Source: Tepidicaulis marinus | GTDB taxonomy: Bacteria; Pseudomonadota; Alphaproteobacteria; Parvibaculales; Parvibaculaceae | Direction of reading: 5' to 3' | Assembly: GCF_000739695.1 (NCBI RefSeq) | Contig: NZ_BBIO01000012.1 | Span: 1-64,000, forward strand | Length of the DNA: 64,000 nt | Part shown: in pieces, positions 4,852-63,594 of the stretch | How positions within the stretch are numbered: position 1 is the first letter of the stretch | Layout of the letters: every line of letters begins with the position of its first letter | Position numbers and translations under genes: made by a program | Notes under the pieces: model-generated | Told to the model about the DNA's origin: nothing | What the model saw: only the letters and a program-made list of their open reading frames with translations | Database searches by the model: none

Positions 4852-6339
4852 ATGGACACAGCACTCGAGCAGATCGCCCAGCAGGGCGGCGAAGACATCA
4901 CCTACCGCGCGCCGCCCCATAACCTGGAAGCGGAGCAAGCGCTTTTGGGCGCCATCCTGATCAATAACGAGGCCTATGACCGGGTCGCCTCTTTTCTGGA
5001 TGCGAGCCATTTCTACGAGCCGCTGCATGGGCGCATTTTCGAGACCGCGACCAAGTTGATCACGCAGGGCCATCTCGCCAGCCCCGTCACGCTGAAACAC
5101 TATTTCGAGCAGGACGAGGCGATCAAGGAAATCGGCGGCACGCAATATCTCGCCCGCCTTGCCGCCTCCGCGACAACGCTGATCAACACAGAAGATTACG
5201 GACGCACGATCTACGATCTGGCGATCCGCCGCGATCTCATTCATATCGGCGAGGAAGTGCATAACCGCGCCTATGACGCGCCGGTGGACGACCCGCCTTC
5301 CGCGCAAATTCTGGATGCGGAGCAAGCGCTCTACAGCCTGGCGGAAAAAGGAAAATATGAAGGCGGCTTCGAGGCATTTGCGAGCGCCATCACCACCGCC
5401 GTCGATATGGCCGCCGCCGCCTATCAGCGCGACGGGGGGCTGTCGGGCATTTCCACGGGGCTGCGCGATCTCGATGAAAAGCTGGGCGGGCTGCAAGCCT
5501 CCGACCTGATCATCCTGGCCGGGCGCCCTTCCATGGGTAAAACCGCGCTTGCCACGAATATCGCCTTCAATGCGGCGCGCGCCTATAAGGCCGAGCACCG
5601 GCCCGACGGCTCGGTGCATGTGACGGACGGGGCGGTTGTCGGGTTCTTCTCGCTGGAAATGTCCTCCGAGCAGCTTGCCACGCGTCTACTGGCCGAACAT
5701 TCGGGCATCCCGTCCGAAAAGCTGCGCCGCGGCAAGATCGATCAGGATCAATGGCACCATTTCGTGCAAGCCGCGCAGGAGCTTGAGGGCCTGCCCCTTT
5801 ATATCGACGATACGGGCGGGCTGACCATCGCAACGCTTGCCGCCCGCGCCCGCCGCCTGAAGCGCCAGCACGGGCTGGGGCTGCTCATGGTCGACTATCT
5901 GCAGCTGCTCGCCGGTTCGCGCACGGAAAACCGCGTGCAGGAAGTGACGGAGATCACCACCGGCCTCAAGGCGCTCGCCAAGGAACTCAACGTGCCGATC
6001 GTCGCGCTCTCTCAGCTTTCGCGCCAAGTGGAAGCGCGCGAGGACAAGCGCCCGCAGCTTTCGGATTTGCGCGAATCCGGCTCCATCGAACAGGACGCGG
6101 ACGTTGTGATGTTCGTCTTCCGCGAGGAATATTACGTCGCCCGCTCGGAGCCCCGCGAGGGCACGCCCGAGCACCTGCAATGGCAGGAAGAAATGGAAAA
6201 GGTGCACAGCCTTGCCGAAGTGATTATCGGCAAGCAGCGCCACGGCCCGACCGGCACCGTCAAGCTGCAGTTCCAGTCCGAGATTACACGGTTCGGCGAT
6301 TACATTGCCCAGGACCACCTGCCGGAAGAAATGTATTGA
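4852..6339 (+). CDS. dnaB: Replicative DNA helicase DnaB
   Basis: 495-residue hexameric 5'-3' helicase of the replication fork. The N-terminal primase-interacting domain starts at PPHNLEAEQALLGAILI (about residue 22). The RecA-like C-terminal domain carries Walker A GRPSMGKT (about residue 224), the Walker B region LLMVDYLQLL and the segment IVALSQLSRQVEAREDKRP. I see no intein. The stop codon TGA overlaps the TTG start of alr. Confidence 0.97.
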   Translation: MDTALEQIAQQGGEDITYRAPPHNLEAEQALLGAILINNEAYDRVASFLDASHFYEPLHGRIFETATKLITQGHLASPVTLKHYFEQDEAIKEIGGTQYLARLAASATTLINTEDYGRTIYDLAIRRDLIHIGEEVHNRAYDAPVDDPPSAQILDAEQALYSLAEKGKYEGGFEAFASAITTAVDMAAAAYQRDGGLSGISTGLRDLDEKLGGLQASDLIILAGRPSMGKTALATNIAFNAARAYKAEHRPDGSVHVTDGAVVGFFSLEMSSEQLATRLLAEHSGIPSEKLRRGKIDQDQWHHFVQAAQELEGLPLYIDDTGGLTIATLAARARRLKRQHGLGLLMVDYLQLLAGSRTENRVQEVTEITTGLKALAKELNVPIVALSQLSRQVEAREDKRPQLSDLRESGSIEQDADVVMFVFREEYYVARSEPREGTPEHLQWQEEMEKVHSLAEVIIGKQRHGPTGTVKLQFQSEITRFGDYIAQDHLPEEMY

Positions 6340-7550
6340 GCCGCACGCCCGACGACATAGATCCCGCGCTTGCCCTGGCGGCGAGCGGCAGCAGCCTGAC
6401 CATCGACCTCGGCGCGGTTGCGGAAAATTACCGGCGCATTGCAAAAGAAGCAGGCGCGGCACAAACCGCCGCTTGCGTCAAAGCCGACGCCTATGGCCTT
6501 GGCATGGAAAAGGTGGCGCCGGTCCTCGCCGAAGCCGGCTGCGCGGATTTCTTCGTCGCCGAGCCTTTGGAAGGGGTGCGGCTGCGCGCGCTTTTACCGC
6601 AAGCGCGGATTTACGTGCTGGACGGGTTCTTTCCCGGCGCCGGTCCTCTTTATGCGGATCATAAACTTGTCCCCGTGCTCGCCACCCGCGCGCAGATCGA
6701 AGACTGGCTCGCTTTTACCCAAAGCGCAGGCAAGCTGCCTGCCGGGCTTCATCTTGACACCGGCATCAACCGGCTCGGCCTTGAAAAAGACGAGGCCGGG
6801 TGGCTGCTCGCCAATGAGGCAGCGCGCCGGGCGCTCGAGGTTGACCTTGTGATGAGCCATCTGGCCTGCGCCGAGGAACCGGAGAGCGAGATGAACAAGC
6901 GCCAGCTTGAACGCTTTGCCGCTTTCCGCGCCGCCTTTCCAAAGGCGCGGGCAAGCCTTTGCAACACGGCGGGGGTCTTTCTCGGGCCCGATTATCATTT
7001 CGATCTGGTGCGCCCCGGCATCGGCCTTTATGGCGGCAACCCGATGCATGAGCACCGGGAAAGCCCTTTCAAGCCGGTGGTCTATGCGTCAGGCCGCATC
7101 CTGCAGGTCCGGCATTTGGAGGCCGGGGAGACGGTCGGCTACGGCGCCACCTTTACCGCGCCGGGGCCGATGCGAATCGCGACCATTGCGGTAGGGTACG
7201 GGGATGGGTTTTTCCGCCGCGTGGGGGATCAAAAACCACAAGCAGAGGTTGTGATTTGCGGGCGCCGTGTGCCGCTTGCCGGGCGCGTTTCCATGGACCT
7301 GATCACGGCGGATGTCAGCGCGCTCCCGAAGGATTTACCCAAAGTGGGAGATATGGCCGAAATTCTGGGTGCTAGAGTGAGCATTGACCATCTTGCAACA
7401 GCCGCCGGAACAATTGGCTATGAAGTGCTAACGCGCTTGGGAAACCGCTACCATAGGACGTATAAACCGGCTGTATCCGGGCACCCGGCGCCGCATGGTG
7501 CGGCGGCCCCGGCACCATTGGCCCAGCAAAGTTCAGGGGACGAGACGTGA
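6336..7550 (+). CDS. alr: Alanine racemase
   Basis: PLP-dependent enzyme that converts L-alanine to D-alanine for peptidoglycan. The PLP-binding lysine lies in AACVKADAYGLG near the N-terminus, and the catalytic tyrosine motif AVGYGDG is present in the C-terminal half. I place the start at the TTG at 6336, which overlaps the dnaB stop (TTGA). An upstream frame through dnaB has no family similarity. The predicted protein is 404 residues, slightly long, with a low-complexity Ala/Pro-rich tail after residue 375. It overlaps the next gene by four bases (GTGA). Confidence 0.93.
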   Translation: MSRTPDDIDPALALAASGSSLTIDLGAVAENYRRIAKEAGAAQTAACVKADAYGLGMEKVAPVLAEAGCADFFVAEPLEGVRLRALLPQARIYVLDGFFPGAGPLYADHKLVPVLATRAQIEDWLAFTQSAGKLPAGLHLDTGINRLGLEKDEAGWLLANEAARRALEVDLVMSHLACAEEPESEMNKRQLERFAAFRAAFPKARASLCNTAGVFLGPDYHFDLVRPGIGLYGGNPMHEHRESPFKPVVYASGRILQVRHLEAGETVGYGATFTAPGPMRIATIAVGYGDGFFRRVGDQKPQAEVVICGRRVPLAGRVSMDLITADVSALPKDLPKVGDMAEILGARVSIDHLATAAGTIGYEVLTRLGNRYHRTYKPAVSGHPAPHGAAAPAPLAQQSSGDET

Positions 7551-8357: not shown

Positions 8358-9131
8358 ATGGAAGAGGCCAAACTCAAACTCACGGATGTGCACAAACGCT
8401 TCGGCTCCAAGGTGGTGCTGAACGGCATCGATCTGGCCGTGCCGAAAGGCAAGTCCGTCGTGGTGATCGGCGGCTCGGGCACCGGCAAATCCGTCATGCT
8501 GAAAAGCGTGCTCGGCATCGTCAAACCCGACAGCGGCGCCATCGAAGTGGACGGCGAGGACATGCTGCGCGTGCCGGCCAAGCGCAAGGAAGAACTGCTG
8601 AAGAAATTCGGCATGCTCTTTCAGGGCGGCGCGCTTTTCGACAGTCTGCCGGTCTGGGAAAACGTCGGCTTCGGCCTTATTCAAGGCCAGAACATGCGCC
8701 GCAAGGAAGCCAAAGAAATCGCCATCGACACGCTCGCCAAAGTCGGCATGGGCGCGGAAGTGGGCGAGCTTTACCCGGCCGAACTTTCAGGGGGCATGCA
8801 AAAACGCGTCGGCCTTGCCCGCGCCATCGCCACGGAGCCTGAAATCATTTTCTTCGACGAGCCGACCACAGGCCTCGATCCGATTATGGCCGATGTCATC
8901 AACGATCTGATCATCGAGCGCGTGCAGGATCTCGGCGCGACGACGCTCTCCATCACCCATGACATGGCCAGCGCGCGCAAGATCGCCGACTACATCGCCA
9001 TGATCTACAAAGGTGAGATCATCTGGTACGGCAAGAAAGAAGATGTCGATCATAGCGGCAACGAATATGTGGATCAGTTCATCCATGGCCGCGCCGAAGG
9101 CCCCATTCAGATGGAAATCCTGAAGCCGTGA
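8358..9131 (+). CDS. mlaF: MlaF-family ABC ATPase
   Basis: 257-residue ATP-binding subunit partnering the MlaE-type permease. Walker A GGSGTGKS, the signature LSGGMQKRVGLARAI and Walker B IIFFDEPTTGLDP are all intact, followed by the switch histidine in SITHDM. I chose the ATG at 8358 because AAAAAAGGA lies just upstream; an ATG at 8325 would add 11 basic residues. It powers lipid movement from the cytoplasmic face. The following gene is radA, so the substrate-binding MCE protein must be encoded elsewhere if the system is complete. Confidence 0.92.
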   Translation: MEEAKLKLTDVHKRFGSKVVLNGIDLAVPKGKSVVVIGGSGTGKSVMLKSVLGIVKPDSGAIEVDGEDMLRVPAKRKEELLKKFGMLFQGGALFDSLPVWENVGFGLIQGQNMRRKEAKEIAIDTLAKVGMGAEVGELYPAELSGGMQKRVGLARAIATEPEIIFFDEPTTGLDPIMADVINDLIIERVQDLGATTLSITHDMASARKIADYIAMIYKGEIIWYGKKEDVDHSGNEYVDQFIHGRAEGPIQMEILKP

Positions 9132-9180
9132 GGCTGAATAAAGAGACGCGATGACGCAGTGCTGTTCCCAAATTAAAAAC

Positions 9181-9210
9181 TGTCACCCCGGGCCTCTCCC
9201 GGGGTCCATG
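9181..9210. repeat. REP-like palindrome between mlaF and radA
   Basis: TCACCCCGGG and CCCGGGGTCCA form a palindrome with a short loop. It is the same family as the copies at 58-85 and 13660-13690, in the opposite orientation. It may also act as a transcription or processing barrier after mlaF. Confidence 0.6.
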
Positions 9211-9261
9211 CAGCGGCCTTGCGCCCTGCCCCCGTTTTTCTTCCTGCAAGGGCACTGAGAC

Positions 9262-10644
9262 ATGGCGCGCGCCAAGACGCAATTCGTCTGTCAAAGCTGC
9301 GGCGCGGTTTATGCGCGCTGGGTGGGCCGCTGCGAAGCCTGCGGCGAATGGAACTCGATCTCCGAAGAGGTGCCCGAAACCTCCGGCGTCGCCGGCGGAC
9401 CGCCCGCCAAGGTTGGCGGCAAAAAGGGCCGGCAGATCAAACTCGTCGCCATGGACGGCGAGCTAACGGAAACACCGCGCCATCTTTCCGGCATCGAGGA
9501 ATTCGACCGGGTATGCGGCGGCGGCCTCGTGCCCGGCTCCGTTTTGCTGGTGGGCGGCGATCCGGGCATCGGTAAATCCACGCTTCTTCTGCAAGCCATG
9601 GCGGCTTTTGCCAAGCGCAAGCTCGAAGCGGTCTATATTTCCGGCGAGGAAGCGATCGATCAGGTGCGCATGCGCGCGCGCCGTCTCGGCCTTGCCGACA
9701 GCGCCGTGGCGCTCGGCGCGGAAACCAACCTCAAAGACATTATCGCAACGCTGGACGGCGAGGACCGGCCGGATGTGGTGGTGATCGATTCCATTCAGAC
9801 CATGTGGACGGACAGCCTCGAATCGGCGCCGGGCACGGTCGGCCAGGTACGCGCCTGCGCCCAGGAACTGGTGCGCTTCGGCAAGAAGTCGGGCGCGGCG
9901 GTGATCATTGTCGGCCATGTCACCAAGGACGGGCAGATCGCGGGCCCCCGCGTCATGGAGCACATGGTCGATACGGTGCTCTATTTCGAAGGCGAGCGCG
10001 GGCATCATTTCCGCATTCTGCGCGCGGTGAAAAACCGTTTCGGGCCGACGAACGAGATCGGCGTGTTCGAGATGGGTGAGCTTGGCCTTGCCGAGGTTTC
10101 CAACCCCTCCGCCCTTTTCCTCGGCGAGCGGGACCGGGAGACGAGCGGCACGGCGGTCTTTGCCGGGATCGAGGGCACGCGGCCCGTGCTCGTGGAACTT
10201 CAGGCGCTGGTCGCCGATAGCGGCCTCGGCAATCCGCGCCGCGCCGTGGTGGGCTGGGATTCGGGCCGTCTTTCCATGGTGCTGGCGGTGCTCGATGCGC
10301 GCTGCGGGCTTTCCTTGAGCGGCCAGGACGTCTATCTCAATGTGGCGGGGGGCCTGCGCATCGTGGAACCGGCAGCCGATCTTGCCGTCGCCGGGGCGCT
10401 AATTTCCTCGCTTTCCAATAAAACCATTCCCGCCGATACGGTGCTTTTCGGCGAGATCAGCCTGTCGGGCGCCGTGCGCCCGGTCAGCCAGACGGAAAGC
10501 CGCCTGAAGGAAGCGGCGAAACTTGGATTTAAACGGGCGATTTTACCCAAAAGCCCCTCCAGCCAGCGCCCGGACGCGCAGGGGCTGGAGATTTTCGAGA
10601 TCGCGGATCTTGGCGGGCTAATTGCACATCTATCGGTTTCATGA
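9262..10644 (+). CDS. radA: DNA repair protein RadA
   Basis: 460-residue RecA-like ATPase that promotes branch migration of recombination intermediates. An N-terminal four-cysteine zinc finger (CQSCGAVYARWVGRCEACGEW) is followed by Walker A GDPGIGKST near residue 98, the family-specific KNRFG motif (about residue 258) and a C-terminal Lon-protease-like domain that lacks catalytic residues, as usual for RadA. The length is typical. It lies upstream of cvpA and purF in the conserved alphaproteobacterial order. Confidence 0.97.
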   Translation: MARAKTQFVCQSCGAVYARWVGRCEACGEWNSISEEVPETSGVAGGPPAKVGGKKGRQIKLVAMDGELTETPRHLSGIEEFDRVCGGGLVPGSVLLVGGDPGIGKSTLLLQAMAAFAKRKLEAVYISGEEAIDQVRMRARRLGLADSAVALGAETNLKDIIATLDGEDRPDVVVIDSIQTMWTDSLESAPGTVGQVRACAQELVRFGKKSGAAVIIVGHVTKDGQIAGPRVMEHMVDTVLYFEGERGHHFRILRAVKNRFGPTNEIGVFEMGELGLAEVSNPSALFLGERDRETSGTAVFAGIEGTRPVLVELQALVADSGLGNPRRAVVGWDSGRLSMVLAVLDARCGLSLSGQDVYLNVAGGLRIVEPAADLAVAGALISSLSNKTIPADTVLFGEISLSGAVRPVSQTESRLKEAAKLGFKRAILPKSPSSQRPDAQGLEIFEIADLGGLIAHLSVS

Positions 10645-47768: not shown

Positions 47769-48416
47769 TTAGCGCTTCAGGACGGGATAGCCTTGTGTGA
47801 AAATCAGATCGGTGGCGCGGGCCGGTTCATGGCAGGTCAGGCAGTCCTGCTTGTAATCGACCGTCACGGATTTCGTGCGCTCATCGCCTTCATAGAACGC
47901 CCAGCCCCAGCCGTCGCCCCAGAGGGGGGATTTGCCCGCATTGGCGTTGTCGCCGTCCTTGATCATAATGAAGCGGCCGGCCAGTTCATTGGCATAGCTT
48001 GCCGTGCCCGTGGTCAGGAATTCCGTCTTCGCGGCGAAGACGTCTTTGATCAGCACCGCGCCATCGGGGAAGACGCCGTTCTTGCGGAAAGCATCGACAT
48101 ATTCTGGCTCGGCATAAACGACATGCAGTTCCTTGGCGCCGTCTTCCGGCTCGTCGGCCAGCACGGAGTAAGACCCCAGCACCGTCCAATCCCTGCGGTA
48201 ATCAACGTCCGGGATATGCAGCGCGGCATCGACGCCTTTCAGTTCATGCGGACCGCTCGCCGCCGAGGTTTCCATGGTTTCCGCTTCCATGGTCTCAGCT
48301 TCCATCGTGTCCGCTTCGGCGACCTGATAGGGCGCTTCGGAAACCTGCGATGCGTAAGCGGCAAGCGCAAAAGAGCTCGCCACGAAGAGCATGCCCAGTC
48401 CAATCGTCTTCTTCAT
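47769..48416 (-). CDS. Cytochrome P460-like c-type haem protein
   Basis: 215-residue exported protein with one CxxCH haem site (DCLTCHEPA) near the C-terminus, matching the cytochrome P460 family by the segment YRRDWTVLGSYSVLADEPED, the later ELHVVYAEPEYVDAFRKNG and the closing DLIFTQGYPVLKR. Characterised P460 proteins oxidise hydroxylamine and carry a Lys-haem cross-link; whether that is so here cannot be read from sequence alone. A signal peptide covers residues 1-22, followed by an AETME repeat. The start at 48416 has AAAGGA upstream. Confidence 0.82.
   Translation of the reverse strand: MKKTIGLGMLFVASSFALAAYASQVSEAPYQVAEADTMEAETMEAETMETSAASGPHELKGVDAALHIPDVDYRRDWTVLGSYSVLADEPEDGAKELHVVYAEPEYVDAFRKNGVFPDGAVLIKDVFAAKTEFLTTGTASYANELAGRFIMIKDGDNANAGKSPLWGDGWGWAFYEGDERTKSVTVDYKQDCLTCHEPARATDLIFTQGYPVLKR
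48271..48315 (-). repeat. Three tandem 15-bp units in the P460 gene
   Basis: TCCATGGTTTCCGCT, TCCATGGTCTCAGCT and TCCATCGTGTCCGCT stand head to tail at 48271-48315. On the coding strand they give ADTME/AETME/AETME in the segment between the signal peptide and the folded domain. Copy number may vary by slippage. Confidence 0.85.
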
Positions 48417-48470
48417 ATGCCTCATCCTTTCGTTCGTTTCTGCCGGCCGGGGCGGCATGCCCCGCCCGCG

Positions 48471-52901: not shown

Positions 52902-52913
52902 TCCTTTATCCGC

Positions 52914-54365
52914 TTAAGCCGGCTTTCTGAGCGTCATGACATAGACGCATTTGGTCGCATCTTCTTCCAGCGATACGCGCTCGCAATCGAGCCCTTCGGT
53001 CATCGCCCACATGTCTTCCTCGGTGCGGTAGACAAGGCTCCAATCCGTCACCATTTCCAGCGGCCACTGGCAGGTTTCCCGGCCAGTCTTCACATTCGCG
53101 ATGATCAGATAACCGCCCGGCGCCACTTGCTCGTAAAGATCGTGGGTGAGCGCCTTGGCGCGGCGCGCCGACAGATAATCGTAAAGGCCGAGGCTGTAGA
53201 GAATGTCCTGGGGCGGCATGCTCTGGAAAAGCGTGCCCGCGCGCAGAAGCTGCGCGAAGGACGCATTGAGGCACTGCACGCGCGCGCGCCCCTGATGGCG
53301 CACCACCTGCTTATAAGCATGTTCATAAGCGTAAGTGAGCGCGTCATGGTCCTGATCGATCAGCGTGAAGCTGACAGGGCGCGGCAGATGATCGATCTTG
53401 AGATAATCGGCCACCTCGAACGCCGAGCCGCAGCCCAGATTGGCGATATGCATGGGCGTGTCGCCCGCCGTCTCGGCTACCTTTTCGGCAATGAATTTCT
53501 GCGTCATGCGCAGCCGCGTGCCGACACAGGCCCCGGTTTCGATGCCGATGCGGTGCAGAAGCTTTTCGTAAGGCGTATCGCCCACCCGCTCCCACTTATA
53601 AACGTAGTTCATGATCTGATAGTCGCCCGGATAGCCGAGCGGCTTTTCGTAGCAGCGGCGCATGACGGGGCCGGGCATGAAGTCCGGCGTCAGCACGCGT
53701 TCGGCGTAGCGCTTATGCGCGGCGAGCGCGACCGGGTCCTTGAATACCGGCTCCAGAATGTCGCTGCCCTTGTACCAAAGCTCTTTCCACTGCGGCACGA
53801 TCTTGTCTTCGCAGGCAATCAACGCTTCCAGGAGCAACGCCTCGCGCTCCTCGCCGCTTGCCTCCAGCCGCGCCTCGAACCGTTCGAGCAAATCCTTGTA
53901 GGAGCGGAAAAGGTTCAGAATGTCGCCGGCCAGCGCCCGGAACTCCGGCAGAATATCCGTGCTCTCGCCGAAATGCGGGTCCGCAATGGCCCGGCGCAGC
54001 AAGACGTGATGATGCTCGGTGACGATGGCGGGAATATCGAGATAGCCGGAGGTCAGCTCCAGCGCGACGGTGGCGCGGATGCCGTTCGGCTCCACCCGCT
54101 TCACCCGGCCCTTGCCCTGATAGACCGTGTCTTCGCCGAGGCGGATCGCCAGCGGCACTTCTTTGCCCAATTGCTCGTCCCAGGCATCGAGCTGCGTGCT
54201 CTGCACGGCAAGCCCGGTCATGGACAGATCTTTGATCGCCGTGCGGTCCCCGTCCAAATCGACGGCCGGCACAACATCTTGAAACAGTTGATCCGGGCGG
54301 TATCGCTCAGCCCGGTAAAACATTTTGCGGCCTGAGGCCCCCAGTAACTCTTCGTACGTCCGCAT
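52914..54365 (-). CDS. PilZ-methyltransferase fusion protein
   Basis: 483-residue protein. The N-terminal 110 residues look like a PilZ domain: the DxSxxG motif is present as DLSMTG (46-51), and basic residues (R18, R21, R23) stand where RxxxR is expected, but the exact RxxxR spacing is not met. A helical region (115-235) follows. The C-terminal domain is a class I SAM methyltransferase with motif I HIANLGCGSAFEVADYL (306-322) and TLIDQD (334-339). The stretch KPLGYPGDYQIMNYVYKWER (241-260) before motif I is the type seen in proteins annotated as making 3-hydroxypalmitate methyl ester (PhcB-like). c-di-GMP control is inferred, not shown. Confidence 0.75.
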   Translation of the reverse strand: MRTYEELLGASGRKMFYRAERYRPDQLFQDVVPAVDLDGDRTAIKDLSMTGLAVQSTQLDAWDEQLGKEVPLAIRLGEDTVYQGKGRVKRVEPNGIRATVALELTSGYLDIPAIVTEHHHVLLRRAIADPHFGESTDILPEFRALAGDILNLFRSYKDLLERFEARLEASGEEREALLLEALIACEDKIVPQWKELWYKGSDILEPVFKDPVALAAHKRYAERVLTPDFMPGPVMRRCYEKPLGYPGDYQIMNYVYKWERVGDTPYEKLLHRIGIETGACVGTRLRMTQKFIAEKVAETAGDTPMHIANLGCGSAFEVADYLKIDHLPRPVSFTLIDQDHDALTYAYEHAYKQVVRHQGRARVQCLNASFAQLLRAGTLFQSMPPQDILYSLGLYDYLSARRAKALTHDLYEQVAPGGYLIIANVKTGRETCQWPLEMVTDWSLVYRTEEDMWAMTEGLDCERVSLEEDATKCVYVMTLRKPA

Positions 54366-54482: not shown

Positions 54483-56783
54483 TTATGTTGGTGTGGAGGG
54501 CGCGCCGCTTTTATCGCCGAAAAGCAACAAAGCAGGCACCAGGAACCAGTCAATGACGAGAGCGGCAATGACGACGATGGTCGCCTGCATACCGAGCTGC
54601 CAGTTCACCTCGAACCCCGACAAAGAGAGAATCGAGAAGCCGACCACCAGCGCCGTGGTGGTGACGAACATCGCAACACCCACCGTCCCGAAAACGGTTT
54701 CGATGGCTTGTTCCGGCGTTTTGCCCTGGTGCCGGGCCCAGCGGTATTTCGAGAGGAAATGGATCGTATCGTCCACCACGATGCCGATCGTCATGGCGGT
54801 GAGCACGGAGCCGGCAAGGCCGATATCCCGGTAGACGAGGCCCCAGACGCCGAAACCGATCACCGCTGGGAAAAGATTCGTAACGAGGCTGATAAACCCG
54901 AGGCGCAGCGAGCGCAAAGCCACCGCGATAATGACGCCGATGACAAGGATCGAGGCGGCGGTCGAATACAGCATCGCGCGTACATTGATGCCGGAAAGAT
55001 AGGAAAAGATGACGTTGATGCTGGTCCCACGGGTCCACATATGGGCCGGCGCCTCGGCTGCCAGCCAGTCCTGCGCCTTGCCGTTGAGTTCGCGTATCTC
55101 GCCCGAGGTCGCCCCGCGCAGGATCGCCGTCACACGGCTTGCCGAGCGGGCGACATTGATGCGGTCGGTGATTTCCGCGCCATAGGGCAAGGAAAGTTCG
55201 TAGATCAGGAAATATTGCGAGATCAGTTCCTGATCGTCCGGCAGAGGTGGGGCCTCTTCTTGCCCGCCGCTCTCCCGGACGCCGTTGATGTGCTTGTGGA
55301 TGCGCCGCGTGATCTGCGTGATGTCCGTTACCGAGAGCACTTTGGGCTGCGCGCGCAGCCAGTCAGCGAATTCGGCGACTTTCCGCTGATACGCCGGGTC
55401 GTAAACGCCGCCATCACTGCCGGCCTTCAAATCGAACTCGACAATGTTGAGCCCCGTCAGATGCTGTTCGGCAAAGTCGGAGGCCCGGCGGTATTCGAAG
55501 CGCTCGTCGAAATAGCGGATGAAATCGTCATCGAGCCGGATATTCACGAGCCCCTGCGCCAGCACCACCGTGGCCGCCGCGATCAGCGCGACCCATAGAT
55601 AGCGCCCCTTGATCGCCAACCGCCCAAGCGCCTGCAATTGCTGGCCCGAGCGGTCCATCCGTCCCTTGAAAGGCAAGAGCGCCATGATCGCGGGCAAGAG
55701 CGAGAAGGTCAGGAGGTAATTGACGAAAATGCCTGCTGCCACCAGCGCGCCCATCTGGTTGAGCGGCGGGGAGTCGGCGGCCAGGAGCGAGAGAAAGCCG
55801 ATGCCGGTGGTCAGGCTGGTCAGCGCCACCGGATAAGCGTTGACGCGCAGCCCTTGCACGATCGCCGCTTCCTTTTCCATCCCCTCCGAACGGTATTGCA
55901 GGATGGAAATCACCACATGCACCGACGACGCCATGGCGATGGTCATAATGATCACGGGCGCGGCCACGGTCGATGGATTGACCGCATGGCCCATCCATCC
56001 GGCGATCCCCATGGCCACCAAAGCGGAAATGTTCAAGAGCGTCACGGTGGCCAGAAGCGCCGTCGAAGAGCGCAGGAAAATGAAAAGCATCAGGCCGGAA
56101 GCCATCAGGCTGACCGGCACCAGAAGCTGCACATCGTTCAGCGAAGCCTCCATGAAGGCGCCCATGAGCATGACATTGCCCGTTGCCCGCACTTTGAGGC
56201 CCGGATAACCGGCCTCGATTTCAGCCGCCAGCGCGCGCGTCGCGGCGATAATCCGGCGCACTTCGGCGGACGCTTCTTTGGGCAGCTTGAAATTGACATT
56301 GACCCCGGCCGCCCCACCATCCGGTTCCATCAAGCGGTTGACGATCAATGGATCGTTGCGCGCGATCTCCTCGATACGGGAAGCTTCTTCCATTGTCAGG
56401 CCGGCGGGATCGTCCACCAGCTCGCGGACAATGAACGTGTCGCCTTGCGAGGTGACATGGGGGAAATTCGTCAAGGAATCGACACGGGTCGAAAACGGCA
56501 ATTGCCAGGCCCGCTCGGTCAATTCGGCCACGGCCTGCAGCCCCTGCGGGGTCATGACCGTTCCCTCAGGCGCGGCCACGGCAAAGAGCACATTGTTATT
56601 GTGCTCGTATTTCTTCTCGAAATCCTCCAGCTCCAAAAGATATTCGTTGGAAGCGGAGAAATAAGCCCGTGTATCCGAGGAAAGACCGAGCCCCAGCAAC
56701 CCGGCGCCGAATCCCGCAACCATCAGTAAGGTGATGATTATGATGATCCACGGCCGGCGCACGGCCCACTCAGCAAACGGCAT
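54483..56783 (-). CDS. MMPL/RND superfamily exporter
   Basis: 766-residue transporter of the COG1033-type RND/MMPL group, with one helix at residues 10-32, a large extracytoplasmic loop to about 210, helices around 215-375 containing a sterol-sensing-type repeat, a second loop, then helices from about 600 to 750. Such proteins move lipids or hydrophobic compounds across or out of the inner membrane by proton motive force. No periplasmic adaptor gene is adjacent. It lies downstream of nothing on its strand and upstream of the PilZ-methyltransferase gene, possibly in one transcript with it (gap 117 bases). Confidence 0.85.
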   Translation of the reverse strand: MPFAEWAVRRPWIIIIITLLMVAGFGAGLLGLGLSSDTRAYFSASNEYLLELEDFEKKYEHNNNVLFAVAAPEGTVMTPQGLQAVAELTERAWQLPFSTRVDSLTNFPHVTSQGDTFIVRELVDDPAGLTMEEASRIEEIARNDPLIVNRLMEPDGGAAGVNVNFKLPKEASAEVRRIIAATRALAAEIEAGYPGLKVRATGNVMLMGAFMEASLNDVQLLVPVSLMASGLMLFIFLRSSTALLATVTLLNISALVAMGIAGWMGHAVNPSTVAAPVIIMTIAMASSVHVVISILQYRSEGMEKEAAIVQGLRVNAYPVALTSLTTGIGFLSLLAADSPPLNQMGALVAAGIFVNYLLTFSLLPAIMALLPFKGRMDRSGQQLQALGRLAIKGRYLWVALIAAATVVLAQGLVNIRLDDDFIRYFDERFEYRRASDFAEQHLTGLNIVEFDLKAGSDGGVYDPAYQRKVAEFADWLRAQPKVLSVTDITQITRRIHKHINGVRESGGQEEAPPLPDDQELISQYFLIYELSLPYGAEITDRINVARSASRVTAILRGATSGEIRELNGKAQDWLAAEAPAHMWTRGTSINVIFSYLSGINVRAMLYSTAASILVIGVIIAVALRSLRLGFISLVTNLFPAVIGFGVWGLVYRDIGLAGSVLTAMTIGIVVDDTIHFLSKYRWARHQGKTPEQAIETVFGTVGVAMFVTTTALVVGFSILSLSGFEVNWQLGMQATIVVIAALVIDWFLVPALLLFGDKSGAPSTPT

Positions 56784-57041: not shown

Positions 57042-58349
57042 ATGGCAGGCACGAACCTGCTAAGTGTTGGCACGGCTGAACTGGGCAAAATGCCCCTCCG
57101 GGAGTTCGTCAAGGGCTTGGAGGGGATGAACCCGGAAGCGATCGTGCGCCTGCGCCGCGAACGCAAACTGACCGCCGAGCACGAACACGCTCTCGAAATC
57201 TTCCTGCGCGATCACCCGTCCAAACGGCTGAAAAAGCCCGAGAAAGAATCGCGCCTGTCACCCCGCGGCCAGGCGCGCCTCGCCCGCCTGCGCGCCAGAG
57301 AGGAAACGGCCCAGCGTCAGAAAGCCGCCGACACGGTGCGCGATGCATTGACGTCCCAGCCATCCCAAAAACGGGAAGGCTATGTCGAGCTTTTCATCCG
57401 GCTGAAAGCTTGGTGGGAAGGTGTCGATGTGGAAATCGTGCGGCGCGAATACAACGAACGGCGCGCCAGCAATCAGCCGCCCGCCAAGAACCCCGACCTG
57501 AGCATCGAGATCGGCAACATTCACCCGCGCTTTGCCAATGACCGCTGGACCGATGCCCGCCTAGAAGTCGCCCAGATTCTTTGGGGGCAAGGCCATAGCC
57601 TGCCCGGCGGGCGGGACTTTGCCCTCAAGCTCGTCAAATCCCTGGCCTTGCGCCCGGAACACACGTTCGCCGATCTGTCCTCCGGCCTTGGCGGGGGGAC
57701 CCGTGCCATTGCGCGGCGGTATCAGCTTTGGCTGGAAGGCTATGAGCGCGAGCCCGACCTGGCCGATTATGCCAATGACGTCTCCATCGATGAAGACATC
57801 GACGCCCAGGCACCGGTCCGCCATTACGAAGTGGAAAAGCTCGCGCTGCAAGAAAACCGCTACGATGCGATCATGGTCCGCGAAATGCTGTTCTCCGTGG
57901 ACGACAAGAAAGCGCTGCTGCAGGATATCGGCCGGGCGCTGAAATCGGACGGCAACCTGCTTTTCACCGATTTCGTCCTCACCGACCGTTTGCAGGAAAC
58001 CGAAACACTGGCCGCCTGGCGCGCCGCCGAACCGTTCCGCGCGCGCCCCTGGACGATGGACGAATACCGCCAAATGCTCTCGGATCTGCGCTACGTGGTA
58101 CGCGTTTTCGAAGACATTACCGACGATTACGTCGCCCATATCAATGCCGGCTGGATGCAAGCGCTCAAAGCCGTCAAAAGCGGCAAATTCTCCCGTGAGC
58201 AGGTCGATGCGCTGATGGAAGAAGGTCAGATGTGGCTTGCCCGCTCCCGCGCCCTGCAAGAGGGCCGGCTCAGACTTTTGCGCTGCCACGCCGTCATGCG
58301 CCACCGGGTGGACCGGGCCATGTCCGACGCCCTCAGGATCGACGGCTAA
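57042..58349 (+). CDS. Unrecognised protein with a methyltransferase-like domain
   Basis: 435-residue soluble protein that I cannot assign to a named family. Residues 1-115 are highly charged (RLRRERKLTAEHEHALEIFL, then KRLKKPEKESRL) and probably helical. From about residue 190 a Rossmann-type methyltransferase fold is likely: ADLSSGLGGGTRAIARRYQL fits SAM motif I, and the segments YDAIMVREMLFSVDDKKALL and GRALKSDGNLLFTDFVLTDR fit the later core. The C-terminal 90 residues are helical. The ATG at 57042 directly follows GAAGAGGG; a later ATG at 57090 is possible. It is divergent from the exporter gene. Confidence 0.65.
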   Translation: MAGTNLLSVGTAELGKMPLREFVKGLEGMNPEAIVRLRRERKLTAEHEHALEIFLRDHPSKRLKKPEKESRLSPRGQARLARLRAREETAQRQKAADTVRDALTSQPSQKREGYVELFIRLKAWWEGVDVEIVRREYNERRASNQPPAKNPDLSIEIGNIHPRFANDRWTDARLEVAQILWGQGHSLPGGRDFALKLVKSLALRPEHTFADLSSGLGGGTRAIARRYQLWLEGYEREPDLADYANDVSIDEDIDAQAPVRHYEVEKLALQENRYDAIMVREMLFSVDDKKALLQDIGRALKSDGNLLFTDFVLTDRLQETETLAAWRAAEPFRARPWTMDEYRQMLSDLRYVVRVFEDITDDYVAHINAGWMQALKAVKSGKFSREQVDALMEEGQMWLARSRALQEGRLRLLRCHAVMRHRVDRAMSDALRIDG

Positions 58350-58445
58350 CGCCGCTCCCCCATCCGGTAAGACACCCGCCATTCAATCTTGGTTAAGGCT
58401 AAGCCGGGTTTTCCAATTTCCATCCGGATTGCGGCAATTCCCCAC

Positions 58446-58494
58446 TTGGCAAGACCTATATCGGTCCTATATATCCCCTATCGGCCCGATATAG
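58446..58494 (+). promoter_or_regulatory. Promoter and operator of the PadR gene
   Basis: TTGGCA (58446-58451) and TATATA (58468-58473) are 16 bases apart. Two inverted 9-mers, CTATATCGG (58456-58464) and CCGATATAG (58486-58494), flank the -10, and a second local palindrome TATCGG-C-CCGATA lies at 58479-58491. These are probable PadR binding sites for autoregulation and control of the efflux genes downstream. Confidence 0.6.
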
Positions 58495-58549
58495 CCCCCC
58501 GGCTTACCAGGGCAGTTGGCCCCCCGCGGCCGCATTCTGGGAATACAAA

Positions 58550-59188
58550 ATGGATGTGCGTACCCTTTGCCTCGGCGCCCTGACGCTGGGGGATGCGACG
58601 GGTTATGAAATCCGCAAAATGTTCGAAGAAGGCGTCTTCAGTCACTTTCTGGAGGCGAGCTACGGGTCTATCTATCCCGCGCTCACCCGCCTGACCGAAG
58701 AAGAACTGGTCACCTGCCATTCCGAACAGCAGGAAAAGCGGCCCGACAAGAAGATTTATTCCGTCACGGATAAAGGCCGCGCCGCCTTCACCGAGGCGCT
58801 GCTCGAACCGCTGGCGGAGGACAAGTTCCGCTCGGAATTCCTGTTCGTCATGCTCTTCGCCCATTTGCTCACGCCCGAGCGGATCAAAGCGCTGATCGAC
58901 GAAAAAGTGGAAGAGCACCGGCAACTGTCCGAGCGGCTTTCCGGTCCGGCGGAAATCGGTACGCCCGCGGCCGACTTCATCAAGGATTTCGGCGCCGTGG
59001 TCCATAAGGCCTCGGTCGATTATCTGGAGAAAAACCGGCACAAGGTCGAGGCGATCGCCGGCGCTTCCCCGCCCCGCGCGTCCGAGCCCCGCGCGCCCGA
59101 AGCGCCGCAGGACGGGAATGCCGCCCGGCCCGCATCACAAAGTAAAAGCGATCACCGCAACCCGAAGGAGCTGGCCCGCATCCGCTGA
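58550..59188 (+). CDS. PadR family transcriptional regulator
   Basis: 212-residue winged-helix regulator. The PadR signature runs from LCLGALTLGDATGYEIRKMF through GSIYPALTRLTEEELVTCHS and KKIYSVTDKGRAAFTEALLE. A C-terminal helical domain for dimerisation follows (about 90-165), then a disordered tail rich in Pro, Arg and Ser. It precedes a two-gene RND efflux operon in the same direction and is the likely local repressor of it, as PadR proteins often repress adjacent transporters. Ligand unknown. Confidence 0.92.
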   Translation: MDVRTLCLGALTLGDATGYEIRKMFEEGVFSHFLEASYGSIYPALTRLTEEELVTCHSEQQEKRPDKKIYSVTDKGRAAFTEALLEPLAEDKFRSEFLFVMLFAHLLTPERIKALIDEKVEEHRQLSERLSGPAEIGTPAADFIKDFGAVVHKASVDYLEKNRHKVEAIAGASPPRASEPRAPEAPQDGNAARPASQSKSDHRNPKELARIR

Positions 59189-59272
59189 CCGCTCCTGCAT
59201 GTCGAAACCGAAAAGTTTCACAGTCAATAAGCCGCTTTCACGGTGGCACGCCAAGAAACGGACCAAGAGATT

Positions 59273-60382
59273 ATGATTATCAAACGCTCTTACATCATCG
59301 CCGCGGTGATCGCAGCCATCCTCTCGGCGTGGATCCTGTCCGGTCAGATTGGCGGTTCGGAAAGCGAGGTCGCGGAAAACGGCGATGCCGGCGGAACGGC
59401 GCAAACGGCCGAACCCGGCGAAGAGGTGTATGTGCAGGTGCGCACCTTCATCGCTCAACCCAAAACCACCAAGACCACCATAAGAGGCCGCACCGAGGCC
59501 ATCCGCTCGGTGGAAGTGCGCGCGGAAACGGCGGGCACGGTCAAGGAAGTGCCTATCGAAGAAGGCGCCCCGGTTGAAGCAGGCGACACGATCTGCCGCC
59601 TCTCGCTCAATGCCCGCGACGCGCGTATGGCCGAAGCCGAGGCGCTGATGCGCCAGCGCTATCTCGAATATGATGCGGCCAAGAAACTCGCCGCCAAGGG
59701 CCACCGCTCCGAAACCCAGGCCGCCGCCGCCCGCGCCGCTTATGACGCCGCCGCCGCGCTGGTCAAACAGGCCGAGGTCGAGCTCGGTCACACCAAGATC
59801 AAGGCTCCTTTCGAAGGGGTGCTGGAAGAGCGGCTCGTCGAAGTGGGCGATTATCTGCGTGTGGGCGATCCTTGCGCGCGGATCGTCGATCTCGATCCCT
59901 TCCTCGTTGTCGGCCAGGTGCCTGAAAGCGAAGTGGGCAAGCTGCGCACCGGCACGGTGGGCGAGGCAAAGCTCATTACGGGCGAGGAAGTGCAGGGCCT
60001 CGTGCGTTACATCGCCAAGACGGCGGATGCCGCCACCCGCACGTTCCGCATCGAGCTGGAAGTGCCCAATGACGATCTTGCATTGCGTTCCGGCGTCACC
60101 GCGCAAATTACGGTACCCGCCAAGGAAGTGCCCGCGCACCGCCTGCCGCCTTCCATTCTGACACTGTCGGATGATGGCTCCGTCGGCGTACGCCTCGTAA
60201 ACGCGAACAATATCGTCGAGTTCCACCGCGTAACCATTCTGGAAGACACGCCCGCCGGCATCTGGGTGGCGGGCCTGCCGGAGCGGGCCGACATCATTAC
60301 GGTCGGTCAGGAATATGTTGCCGCAGGCCAGAAGGTGCGCGTTTCCCGCACTGAGGAAACGACGCTGGGGAGCGCCCAATGA
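59273..60382 (+). CDS. RND efflux periplasmic adaptor subunit
   Basis: 369-residue membrane fusion protein. An N-terminal anchor helix (SYIIAAVIAAILSAWILSG) is followed by a low-complexity linker, a barrel-sandwich (lipoyl-like) domain with EVRAETAGTVKEVPIEEGAP near residue 85, a coiled-coil hairpin (AEALMRQRYLEYDAAKKLAA) and beta-barrel and membrane-proximal domains. It bridges the inner-membrane pump to an outer-membrane channel; no TolC-type gene is nearby. The ATG at 59273 puts the anchor at the N-terminus; a GTG at 59243 is an alternative. It overlaps the pump gene by four bases. Confidence 0.92.
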   Translation: MIIKRSYIIAAVIAAILSAWILSGQIGGSESEVAENGDAGGTAQTAEPGEEVYVQVRTFIAQPKTTKTTIRGRTEAIRSVEVRAETAGTVKEVPIEEGAPVEAGDTICRLSLNARDARMAEAEALMRQRYLEYDAAKKLAAKGHRSETQAAAARAAYDAAAALVKQAEVELGHTKIKAPFEGVLEERLVEVGDYLRVGDPCARIVDLDPFLVVGQVPESEVGKLRTGTVGEAKLITGEEVQGLVRYIAKTADAATRTFRIELEVPNDDLALRSGVTAQITVPAKEVPAHRLPPSILTLSDDGSVGVRLVNANNIVEFHRVTILEDTPAGIWVAGLPERADIITVGQEYVAAGQKVRVSRTEETTLGSAQ

Positions 60383-63300
60383 ACGCTTTTATCGAAGCCT
60401 GCTTTTCCCATTCGCGCACCGTTCTGACCGTTATGGTTCTGATGGTGCTGGCCGGGATCAGCGCTTACATCTCCATCCCCAAGGAAGCGGACCCGGATAT
60501 TCCCATCCCGGTCTTCTATGTTTCGATCAGCCATGCGGGTATTTCGCCGGAGGATTCCGAACGGCTCCTGATCAAGCCCATGGAAACCGAGCTGCGCTCG
60601 CTGGAAGGGCTGAAAGAGCTGGTCAGCATCGCCTCGCTCGGCCATGCCGGCATCATTCTCGAATTCGATGTGGATTTCGACAAGGACACGGCGCTTGCCG
60701 ATGTACGCGAGAAGGTGGACCTCGTGCGCCCGAAACTGCCCTCGGATGCGGATGAGCCTTCGGTGCGCGAGTTCAACACCGCGCTCTTTCCCGTGCTCAT
60801 CGTCACGCTATCGGGCGATGTGCCCGAGCGCACGCTTTATCAGCATGCAAGGCGTCTGAAGGACGATATCGAGAACGTCTCGACCGTGCTCGAGGCGAAA
60901 ATGGTCGGCCACCGCGAGGAATTGCTCGAAGTGGTGATCGACCCCGCGCGCCTTGAATCCTATCAGGTCTCTCAGCAGGAACTGATCAACGCCATCACGC
61001 TCAACAACCGGCTGGTGGCTGCCGGCGCGCTCGACACCGGCGAAGGGCGCTTCTCGGTCAAGGTTCCCGGCCTTATCGAAAGCCCCGAGGACGTTTACAA
61101 CCTGCCGATCAAGGTCTCCGGCGACGGCGCGGTGACGCTCGGCGACATCGCCGATATCCGCCGCACCTTCATGGACCCGACCGGTTTTGCCCAGTTCAAC
61201 GGCAAACGCGCCATCGCCCTGCAAGTTACCAAGCGCATCGGCACGAATATCATCGAGAACAACGAGGCGGTGCGCGAGGTCGTGGAAAAAACCACCGGGC
61301 GCTGGCCGGATGCCATCAAGGTCGATTACACGCTCGATGCTTCCGACTGGATCTACCGTTCGCTCAACTCGCTGGAAAACTCCATCATGACCGCCATCGC
61401 GCTTGTCATGGTGGTGGTGCTGGCCGCGCTCGGGCCCCGCTCGGCCATTCTCGTCGGTGTCGCCATTCCCACCTCCTTCGTCATCGGCTTCTTCTTCATG
61501 TCCGTTGTCGGCATGACCATGAACATGATGGTGATGTTCGGACTTCTTCTCTCCGTCGGCATTCTCGTCGACGGGGCCATCGTGGTGGTGGAATATGCGG
61601 ACCGCAAAATGGCCGAAGGGCTCGACAGCCGCGCAGCTTATGCGCTCGCCGCCAAGCGCATGTTCTGGCCCATCGCCTCTTCCACCGGCACGACACTGGC
61701 CGCCTTCATGCCCATGCTCTTCTGGCCCGGGGTGAGCGGCGAGTTCATGTCCTATCTGCCCATCACCGTGATCGTCGTGCTGACGGCCTCCTTCGTCACG
61801 GCCATGATCTTCATGCCGGTTTTGGGCGGCATTTTCGGCAAGACGGACGAAGCCGACAATGATGTACTGAAAATGCTCGCCGGTGCGGAGACGGGGGATG
61901 TGCGCGCCCTGCCCGGTTTCACCGGCGCTTATGTGCGCGTCCTCGACCGGCTGATCCGTCACCCGGTTCTCGTCATGGCCGTTTCCGGCGTCATCCTCTT
62001 CACCACGTTCTTCGCTTACTCCACATGGAACAATGGTGTCGAATTCTTCGTGGAAACGGAGCCGGAGCAGGCCATCGTGCTGGTGAGCGCGCGGGGTAAT
62101 CTGTCCGCTAAAGAAACGCTCGCCCTTTCCAAGGACGTGGAAGACATCATTCTGGAAACGGAAGGGGTGAAGACCGTCTTCACCTCCACCGGCACCAGCC
62201 TCGGGTCGGGACCAGGATCGGGCGGGGAGAAGCCTGCCGATGTCATTGCCGAAATGCTGATGGAGCTGAAGCCTTACGAAGAACGGGGCCCCGGCGCGCC
62301 TATTCTCGATTCCATCCGCCAACGCGCCTCTCAGCTTCCCGGCATTCACGTGGAAGTGCGCAAGCGCGAAGACGGGCCGCCCACCGGCAAAGACGTGCAG
62401 GTGGAGCTGACAAGCCCGGACTACGAAGACCTGACGGCCGCCACCGCCATCGTGCGCAACTACATGGAAACGGAAGTCGAAGGTCTGATCGATTTTGAGG
62501 ATTCCCGTCCCCTGCCCGGCATCGAATGGGTATTGACCGTGGACCGGGAAATGGCGGGCCGCTTCGGCGCCGACATCACCTCGATCGGCGCGACCGTGCA
62601 GCTCGTCACCAACGGCATTCTGGTGGACAAGTACCGCCCGGACGATGCCGAGGACGAGGTGGATATACGCGTGCGCTTCCCCGAAAACTTCCGCACGCTC
62701 GATCAGCTCGACCAGCTCAAAGTGCAAACCGCGCAAGGTCTTGCGCCGCTTTCCAGCTTCGTCTCCCGCGAGCCGCAGCAAGAAGTCAGCACGATCGAGC
62801 GCATTGACGGGGTGCGCCGCATGACGGTGAAAGCCAATACGGGCATCGACCCCGTCACCGGCGAAAAAATCAACGTCAATGCCAAGGCTCAGGAAGTTGC
62901 CGACTGGCTGGAAACCCAGGACCTGCCCGGCGATGTTAGCTGGCGCATGCGCGGGGCGAACGAAGAACAGGCCGAGTCCGCCGCCTTTTTGGGCCGGGCG
63001 CTGCTTGCCTCACTCTTCTTGATGTTCATCATCCTGCTGACGCAGTTCAACAGCTTCTATCATTCGGTGCTGACGCTTTCGACGGTGATCCTCTCCACCA
63101 TTGGCGTGCTGCTCGGCATGCTGATTACGGGGCAAACCTTCTCGGTGATCATGACGGGCACGGGCATCGTCGCGCTGGCCGGTATCGTGGTGAACAACTC
63201 CATCGTGCTCATCGACACCTACCAGCGCTTGATCGAAGAAGGATTGGAAGAAGTGGAAGCCGTGCTGCGCACCGCCGGTCAGCGGTTGCGGCCGATTTTG

Positions 63301-63594
63301 CTGACGACGATCACGACCATGTTCGGCCTCCTGCCCATGGCGCTCCAGGTCAATGTGGGTTTCTTCGACCGCTCGCTCAGCTTCGGCGGGCCGGTTTCGG
63401 CCTGGTGGGTGCAGCTTGCCACGGCCATTATTTTCGGCCTCGGCTTCTCCACCTTGCTGACACTGGTGTTGGTACCGGTCCTTTTGGCCCTGCCCTCGCG
63501 TATCAAGGACAGGTTCCACGGACAAACGCTTTGGGAAAAGCTGGGGATTGCCCGCGCCAGGGACGGCGGTCACCACGGCTACCCGGCCGAATAA
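60379..63594 (+). CDS. RND efflux pump permease
   Basis: 1071-residue AcrB-type inner-membrane proton antiporter with 12 helices and two large periplasmic loops. The N-terminal MNAFIEACFSHSRTVLTVMV starts helix 1. The helix-4 motif reads GILVDGAIVVVEYADRKM, with VDG where typical drug-efflux (HAE) pumps have VDD. The helix-10/11 motif is GIVALAGIVVNNSIVLID. The ATG overlaps the adaptor stop (ATGA), so the two are translationally coupled. The substrate is unknown. Confidence 0.93.
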   Translation: MNAFIEACFSHSRTVLTVMVLMVLAGISAYISIPKEADPDIPIPVFYVSISHAGISPEDSERLLIKPMETELRSLEGLKELVSIASLGHAGIILEFDVDFDKDTALADVREKVDLVRPKLPSDADEPSVREFNTALFPVLIVTLSGDVPERTLYQHARRLKDDIENVSTVLEAKMVGHREELLEVVIDPARLESYQVSQQELINAITLNNRLVAAGALDTGEGRFSVKVPGLIESPEDVYNLPIKVSGDGAVTLGDIADIRRTFMDPTGFAQFNGKRAIALQVTKRIGTNIIENNEAVREVVEKTTGRWPDAIKVDYTLDASDWIYRSLNSLENSIMTAIALVMVVVLAALGPRSAILVGVAIPTSFVIGFFFMSVVGMTMNMMVMFGLLLSVGILVDGAIVVVEYADRKMAEGLDSRAAYALAAKRMFWPIASSTGTTLAAFMPMLFWPGVSGEFMSYLPITVIVVLTASFVTAMIFMPVLGGIFGKTDEADNDVLKMLAGAETGDVRALPGFTGAYVRVLDRLIRHPVLVMAVSGVILFTTFFAYSTWNNGVEFFVETEPEQAIVLVSARGNLSAKETLALSKDVEDIILETEGVKTVFTSTGTSLGSGPGSGGEKPADVIAEMLMELKPYEERGPGAPILDSIRQRASQLPGIHVEVRKREDGPPTGKDVQVELTSPDYEDLTAATAIVRNYMETEVEGLIDFEDSRPLPGIEWVLTVDREMAGRFGADITSIGATVQLVTNGILVDKYRPDDAEDEVDIRVRFPENFRTLDQLDQLKVQTAQGLAPLSSFVSREPQQEVSTIERIDGVRRMTVKANTGIDPVTGEKINVNAKAQEVADWLETQDLPGDVSWRMRGANEEQAESAAFLGRALLASLFLMFIILLTQFNSFYHSVLTLSTVILSTIGVLLGMLITGQTFSVIMTGTGIVALAGIVVNNSIVLIDTYQRLIEEGLEEVEAVLRTAGQRLRPILLTTITTMFGLLPMALQVNVGFFDRSLSFGGPVSAWWVQLATAIIFGLGFSTLLTLVLVPVLLALPSRIKDRFHGQTLWEKLGIARARDGGHHGYPAE

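Follow-up and report, generated by a model that had tools for sequence, protein, structure and literature searches.

A conserved alphaproteobacterial PilZ–methyltransferase encoded convergently with a PhcS-like sensor kinase: a candidate c-di-GMP-gated signal synthase

In a 64,000-nucleotide stretch of Tepidicaulis marinus DNA, the whole of which we call the window, the gene P0001 encodes a protein of 483 residues that joins an N-terminal PilZ domain to a class I SAM methyltransferase. The protein belongs to a conserved family, it is obligatorily accompanied by a convergently encoded histidine kinase, and both partners are homologous to the members of a PhcB/PhcS-like pair. This homology, together with the locked arrangement of the two genes, makes a signal synthase and its sensor the most likely interpretation of the pair. 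More specifically, we see about an even chance that P0001 is gated by c-di-GMP and makes a methylated signal, probably a lipid, that is read by the neighboring kinase. The open reading frame given in the original prediction, 52914–54365, is exact; it lies on the minus strand, where the prediction gave none. Features of the locus are collected in Table 1.

Table 1. Features of the P0001 locus, in window coordinates
Feature	Position	Strand	Evidence
PilZ–methyltransferase gene P0001, 483 aa	52914..54365	-	ORF listing; family searches
PilZ domain, ~residues 14–115	54021..54326	-	Pfam; AF2 pLDDT ~86–94 from residue 21; fold matches
R18-A-E-R21, RxxR variant of RxxxR, arginines invariant	54303..54314	-	56/56 relatives
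D46-L-S-M-T-G51, (D/N)xSxxG motif	54213..54230	-	D/N46, S48, G51 in 56/56
Helical linker, ~residues 140–224	53694..53948	-	AF2 model, pLDDT ~50–68
Class I SAM-dependent methyltransferase domain, ~residues 228–483	52917..53684	-	Weak Pfam; fold search; tree
KPLGYPGD signature, residues 241–248	53622..53645	-	Invariant in alignment A2; KPLGYAGD in PhcB-like proteins
SAM-binding motif I IANLGCGSAFEV, residues 307–318	53412..53447	-	Alignments
Sensor histidine kinase (N-terminal multi-TM sensor + HisKA + HATPase), convergent with P0001	51405..52901	+	Pfam; co-occurrence, synteny; PhcS-like sensor homology
12-bp gap between convergent kinase and P0001 genes	52902..52913	.	Sequence; gaps in relatives
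MMPL-family RND transporter, just upstream of P0001; candidate exporter, kept in part of the family	54483..56783	-	Pfam; NCBIfam; synteny

PilZ domains are the usual receptors of the messenger c-di-GMP. That P0001 begins with such a domain had been proposed from a DLSMTG motif at residues 46–51, and three lines of evidence confirm, at the level of sequence and modeling, a real PilZ domain and more than a chance resemblance. First, the Pfam model PF07238 scores 24.7 bits on residues 1–122 alone, above its cut-off of 22.5 (the whole protein scores 21.5 bits, just below it), and matches 15 of 16 diverse relatives, with E values up to 1. Second, the predicted motif is there, and the (D/N)xSxxG pattern of canonical c-di-GMP-binding PilZ domains is kept throughout the family: R18, R21, D/N46, S48, G51, and R90 are found in 56/56 relatives, down to ~36% identity. 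Third, an AlphaFold2 model of the N-terminal 130 residues (mean pLDDT 84) forms a beta barrel with a C-terminal helix (111–128), and both Foldseek and VIA-align 2 place PilZ domains first among its PDB matches; of the 29 top alignments, almost all are to PilZ structures. VCA0042 (Z 10.0 over 99 residues, 3.0 Å) is followed by YcgR-type proteins, MotI/DgrA, BcsA, Alg44, and MapZ, the last in its complex with CheR1 at Z 8.4; non-PilZ structures (phage and type VI barrels, flavin reductases) rank lower, at Z 7.3 or less. A sequence search of the PDB with P0001 gave no convincing relative, with YcgR appearing only at E 0.91.

The arginine motif of this domain appears from the alignments to be altered but strongly constrained. 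As had been pointed out originally, R18, R21, and R23 are in non-canonical spacing; the pair that is kept in all 56 relatives is RxxR rather than the canonical RxxxR carried by the other PilZ domains of the same genome, and R23 is not invariant. Because model residues 18–119 align with residues 137–247 of VCA0042 in 2RDE, and the RxxxR of VCA0042 presumably lies at ~136–140, the P0001 pair would occupy the RxxxR place. The spacing from which a loss or change of binding had originally been considered is confirmed, but the invariance of R18xxR21 argues for a retained, modified function and not for decay. The affinity for c-di-GMP may be low, or the ligand may be different. The genome encodes canonical PilZ proteins and has eight GGDEF matches, so c-di-GMP signaling is available. 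One of the genome's proteins, of 228 residues (L062, G000:C33:61456-62016), carries two canonical PilZ domains, each with RxxxR and DxSxxG.

It is also conceivable, if somewhat unlikely, that the PilZ domain of P0001 is a degenerate module with a structural or protein-docking role that binds no nucleotide, in an enzyme that would still make a signal together with its kinase. A broken RxxxR would fit such a module, as would the PhcB-like N terminus, which has apparently been kept without either motif, and Xanthomonas XCC6012 is a precedent for a motif-less PilZ domain (PMC3131395). A scaffold, however, would not need the six invariant positions listed above, and the best fold matches include PilZ structures determined with c-di-GMP. 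We therefore favor a ligand-binding domain that controls the enzyme to which it is fused.

The remainder of P0001, residues 228–483, is a class I SAM methyltransferase with motif I intact and the KPLGYPGD signature invariant, in agreement with the fold search. Residues 241–256 read KPLGYPGDYQIMNYVY, the stretch from which a PhcB-type enzyme had originally been proposed. The stretch is indeed present, but KPxGYxGD-like sequences are also found in more distant methyltransferases, and GYPGD is thus not diagnostic of PhcB. The best structural match of the full P0001 model, 3ocj, was considered as a functional guide and set aside: the family profile misses it (E up to 1), and no function was taken from it. 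NCBIfam has no model specific to P0001, and the methyltransferase domain fits no family of known substrate. This last result, together with a weak similarity to CheR models in 11 of 16 members of the family, would suit an enzyme that methylates an intracellular target (a lipid, a cofactor, the kinase, or another protein) and forms a regulatory pair with the kinase, with no secreted signal; the convergence of the two genes is compatible with such mutual regulation. We think this improbable, because both partners are homologous to PhcB and PhcS, a pair that yields an excreted methyl ester (PMC10653808), and because a transporter of the MMPL family stands beside the enzyme gene in several families.

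The searches show that the fusion is not confined to this gene. Almost every searched genome of the same taxonomic family encodes a full-length relative of P0001, and relatives turned up in 35 of the 385 genomes taken from across the Alphaproteobacteria, a count that takes in one short methyltransferase without PilZ (G095) and some fragmentary matches. The PilZ–methyltransferase is a conserved family present in many alphaproteobacterial families and not a one-off fusion, and a degenerate form of its N terminus seems to persist in PhcB-like proteins. A protein 99% identical to P0001 is encoded in a Rhodobiaceae MAG (L031), which sets the window within the Rhodobiaceae/Parvibaculaceae. Viral contigs contained no relative, and plasmids contained no match covering 80% of P0001, most matches being to the methyltransferase domain. 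One PilZ-less relative, on a Pseudanabaena plasmid (L061, 4959-7578), is 47% identical in the methyltransferase domain and convergent with a homologous kinase near a response regulator; a recombinase gene and a Tn3 transposase stand immediately upstream of it, and the gene may have been truncated. The short G095 enzyme (L129, 7694-8359, plus strand) has KPDGYPGD in place of the signature and a convergent kinase of the same kind (41% identity) at 8595-10190 on the minus strand, indicating that this type of kinase can pair with another branch of methyltransferases.

The obligatory convergent PhcS-like kinase, overlooked in the original prediction, is the strongest evidence for a signaling role. 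It combines a multi-TM sensor, recognized by hydropathy, with HisKA and HATPase domains matched by Pfam. When the same 385 genomes were searched with its sensor half, all 35 methyltransferase genomes gave a match (Fisher p ~5e-41, a value that ignores relatedness and so overstates independence, although some 20 families are involved). Wherever enzyme and kinase share a contig they are convergent (32/32, the PilZ-less G095 pair counted), and among the measured loci their coding ends are usually less than 65 bp apart, with two at ~1 kb. Since the PilZ-less Pseudanabaena enzyme shows the same convergence with a kinase of this kind, the methyltransferase–kinase pair would be the conserved core and PilZ its regulatory part. 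By profile comparison, the kinase sensor is homologous to the sensors of PhcS-like kinases (P 3.4e-11, versus 0.3 for a reversed control and 0.018 for the best of 28 other multi-TM proteins); single PhcS-like sensors gave 3e-3 to 1e-8. A DivJ orthologue was considered and rejected, the DivJ-model score of the kinase being eighth in the genome and far under the cut-off. No Response_reg gene was found among the scanned neighbors of enzyme and kinase, the window included, and a search of the genome for an LqsR/PhcX-like regulator returned matches at the level of the receiver domain only. The kinase may also sense something else and merely share a pathway with the enzyme.

PhcB of Ralstonia is the synthase of methyl 3-hydroxymyristate or methyl 3-hydroxypalmitate, and the Phc system works through the response regulators PhcR and PhcQ, with output via the LysR-type regulator PhcA. 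The genes form a phcBSRQ operon, and the phc cluster has been described as confined to Betaproteobacteria (PMC10653808). In a Paraburkholderia graminis locus (L060), the genes for a methyltransferase, a multi-TM histidine kinase, and a pair of response regulators all point the same way; as this gene order resembles phcBSRQ (PMC10653808), we took L060 and its relatives L073–L078 as a PhcB-like set, a stand-in for Ralstonia PhcB, which is itself not among them. One member (L075, 1501-2898, plus strand, genome G710) is a PhcB-like frame interrupted once, close to the C-terminal end, by an in-frame TGA. All seven PhcB-like loci from Betaproteobacteria have a kinase gene beside that of the enzyme, in the same orientation.

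In hhalign, residues 72–471 of P0001 align with residues 53–453 of the L060 protein colinearly and without large gaps (P 5e-38), in a stretch that starts inside the PilZ domain and takes in its last strands. The tree supports kinship of a more distant sort: in a maximum likelihood analysis of the methyltransferase domain, the PilZ enzymes and the cyanobacterial relative form one group (support 81/62), and the PhcB-like proteins form a separate clade (100/99) with P0001 not inside it. The original assignment to PhcB-like enzymes therefore holds as homology, and P0001 is PhcB-like but not PhcB, so that a 3-hydroxy fatty acid methyl ester can be named as its product only by inference. For the same reason, we consider it improbable that the locus is a direct alphaproteobacterial Phc system in which P0001 carries out the PhcB reaction unchanged and yields methyl 3-hydroxyalkanoates. 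Colinear homology, the KPLGY(P/A)GDY and GL(F/Y)DYL motifs in common, and a homologous kinase sensor all point that way, but they must be set against an identity of ~24%, the separate clade, another gene order, and the lack of a neighboring response regulator. A Phc-like pair, with a synthase other than PhcB, seems to us the better description.

The alignment also bears on the N terminus of PhcB-like proteins, which has no Pfam PilZ match and no intact (D/N)xSxxG or RxxxR. Compared alone, the N-terminal regions of P0001 and the PhcB-like set match at P 1.9e-4. In sliding profile comparisons, an offset of 19 is best for PhcB residues 20–36 and 53–95 and places NLQRxSL of the PhcB-like proteins on DLSMTGL of P0001, but it is not best over residues 7–37 or 7–52; the case for a degenerate PilZ domain in PhcB is therefore suggestive and not proven. 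An experimentally selected phcB mutation, R22C, lies outside the methyltransferase domain and lowers signal production, and R22 is conserved among Ralstonia, Cupriavidus, and Paraburkholderia (PMC6989110). Position 22 of the L060 protein (5422-6825, plus strand) is an arginine; it is kept across the PhcB-like set (RGT) and precedes the D/N position by five residues.

Of the other neighbors, the MMPL transporter is a candidate exporter. Six of the taxonomic families examined have such a gene close to that of the enzyme, not always in this orientation; several other MMPL/RND proteins are encoded in the genome, which makes the link suggestive only. Elsewhere in the window, 57042-63594 (plus strand) encodes an unrelated second methyltransferase (435 aa, with a weak match to the DVU_1556 model), a PadR regulator, and HlyD-type and AcrB-type efflux proteins, relatives of which adjoin the enzyme–kinase pair at several loci within this taxonomic family. 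At 47769-48458 on the minus strand, a few genes from the pair, there is a gene for cytochrome P460 (Pfam PF16694, E 1e-24). Scans for promoters and terminators gave nothing exceeding chance.

Taken together, these observations suggest the following mechanism. The PilZ domain would control the methyltransferase in cis, with c-di-GMP or a related nucleotide binding at R18/R21/D46/S48/G51 and switching the enzyme. The enzyme would methylate a small, probably acyl-type, substrate to give a signal that is excreted, in some lineages perhaps through the adjacent MMPL transporter, and the convergent multi-TM histidine kinase would read it.

c-di-GMP governs the bacterial choice between motile and settled life, and quorum signals serve for counting neighbors. 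If the proposed mechanism is true, a single enzyme links a c-di-GMP receptor to a signal synthase directly and not via transcription. In the open-access literature we found no protein that joins PilZ with PhcB or with a signal synthase. The occurrence of the two core Phc parts in numerous families of Alphaproteobacteria, in a PilZ-bearing and interlocked form, would extend the range of Phc beyond the Betaproteobacteria (compare PMC10653808), and the PhcB N terminus, the site of R22C (PMC6989110), could be read as a PilZ-derived control domain. In its fullest form, which we offer tentatively and judge to have somewhat less than an even chance, the proposal is of a new alphaproteobacterial family of quorum-sensing type, in which one polypeptide couples c-di-GMP directly to the synthesis of a methylated lipid that acts as an extracellular signal and is read by an obligatory PhcS-like kinase, and in which the PhcB N terminus is a degenerate PilZ domain from the same ancestor.

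Several known systems can be set beside this one. With the PilZ domains of YcgR, VCA0042, Alg44, and BcsA, P0001 shares the fold (Z up to 10.0), the (D/N)xSxxG motif, and two arginines at the RxxxR place; it differs from them in its RxxR spacing and in the fusion to a methyltransferase. A functional parallel is found in Pseudomonas aeruginosa, where c-di-GMP-bound MapZ inhibits the methyltransferase CheR1 in trans (PMC6370697). There, as proposed here, a PilZ domain controls a SAM-dependent methyltransferase, and MapZ is among the fold matches of P0001; but MapZ and its target are separate proteins and the substrates of CheR1 are chemoreceptors, whereas P0001 holds both domains in one chain. 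The window kinase resembles PhcS-like kinases in having a multi-TM sensor followed by HisKA and HATPase, with profile homology over ~150 sensor residues; identity is ~24% overall and ~20% in the sensor, and, unlike the L060 kinase with its adjacent partner response regulators, the window kinase is convergent with its enzyme and has none adjacent. PhcB and the PhcB-like proteins have the same two-part architecture as P0001 (residues 72–471 being alignable), the PhcB-like proteins share its KPLGY(P/A)GDY, CG.A.E, and GL(F/Y)DYL motifs, and their genes, like P0001, always adjoin that of a kinase with a homologous multi-TM sensor. The PhcB-like loci, however, are co-directional operons, with response regulators in L060, and the window locus is a convergent pair without neighboring regulators and not a co-directional operon with PhcR and PhcQ of the phcBSRQ kind.
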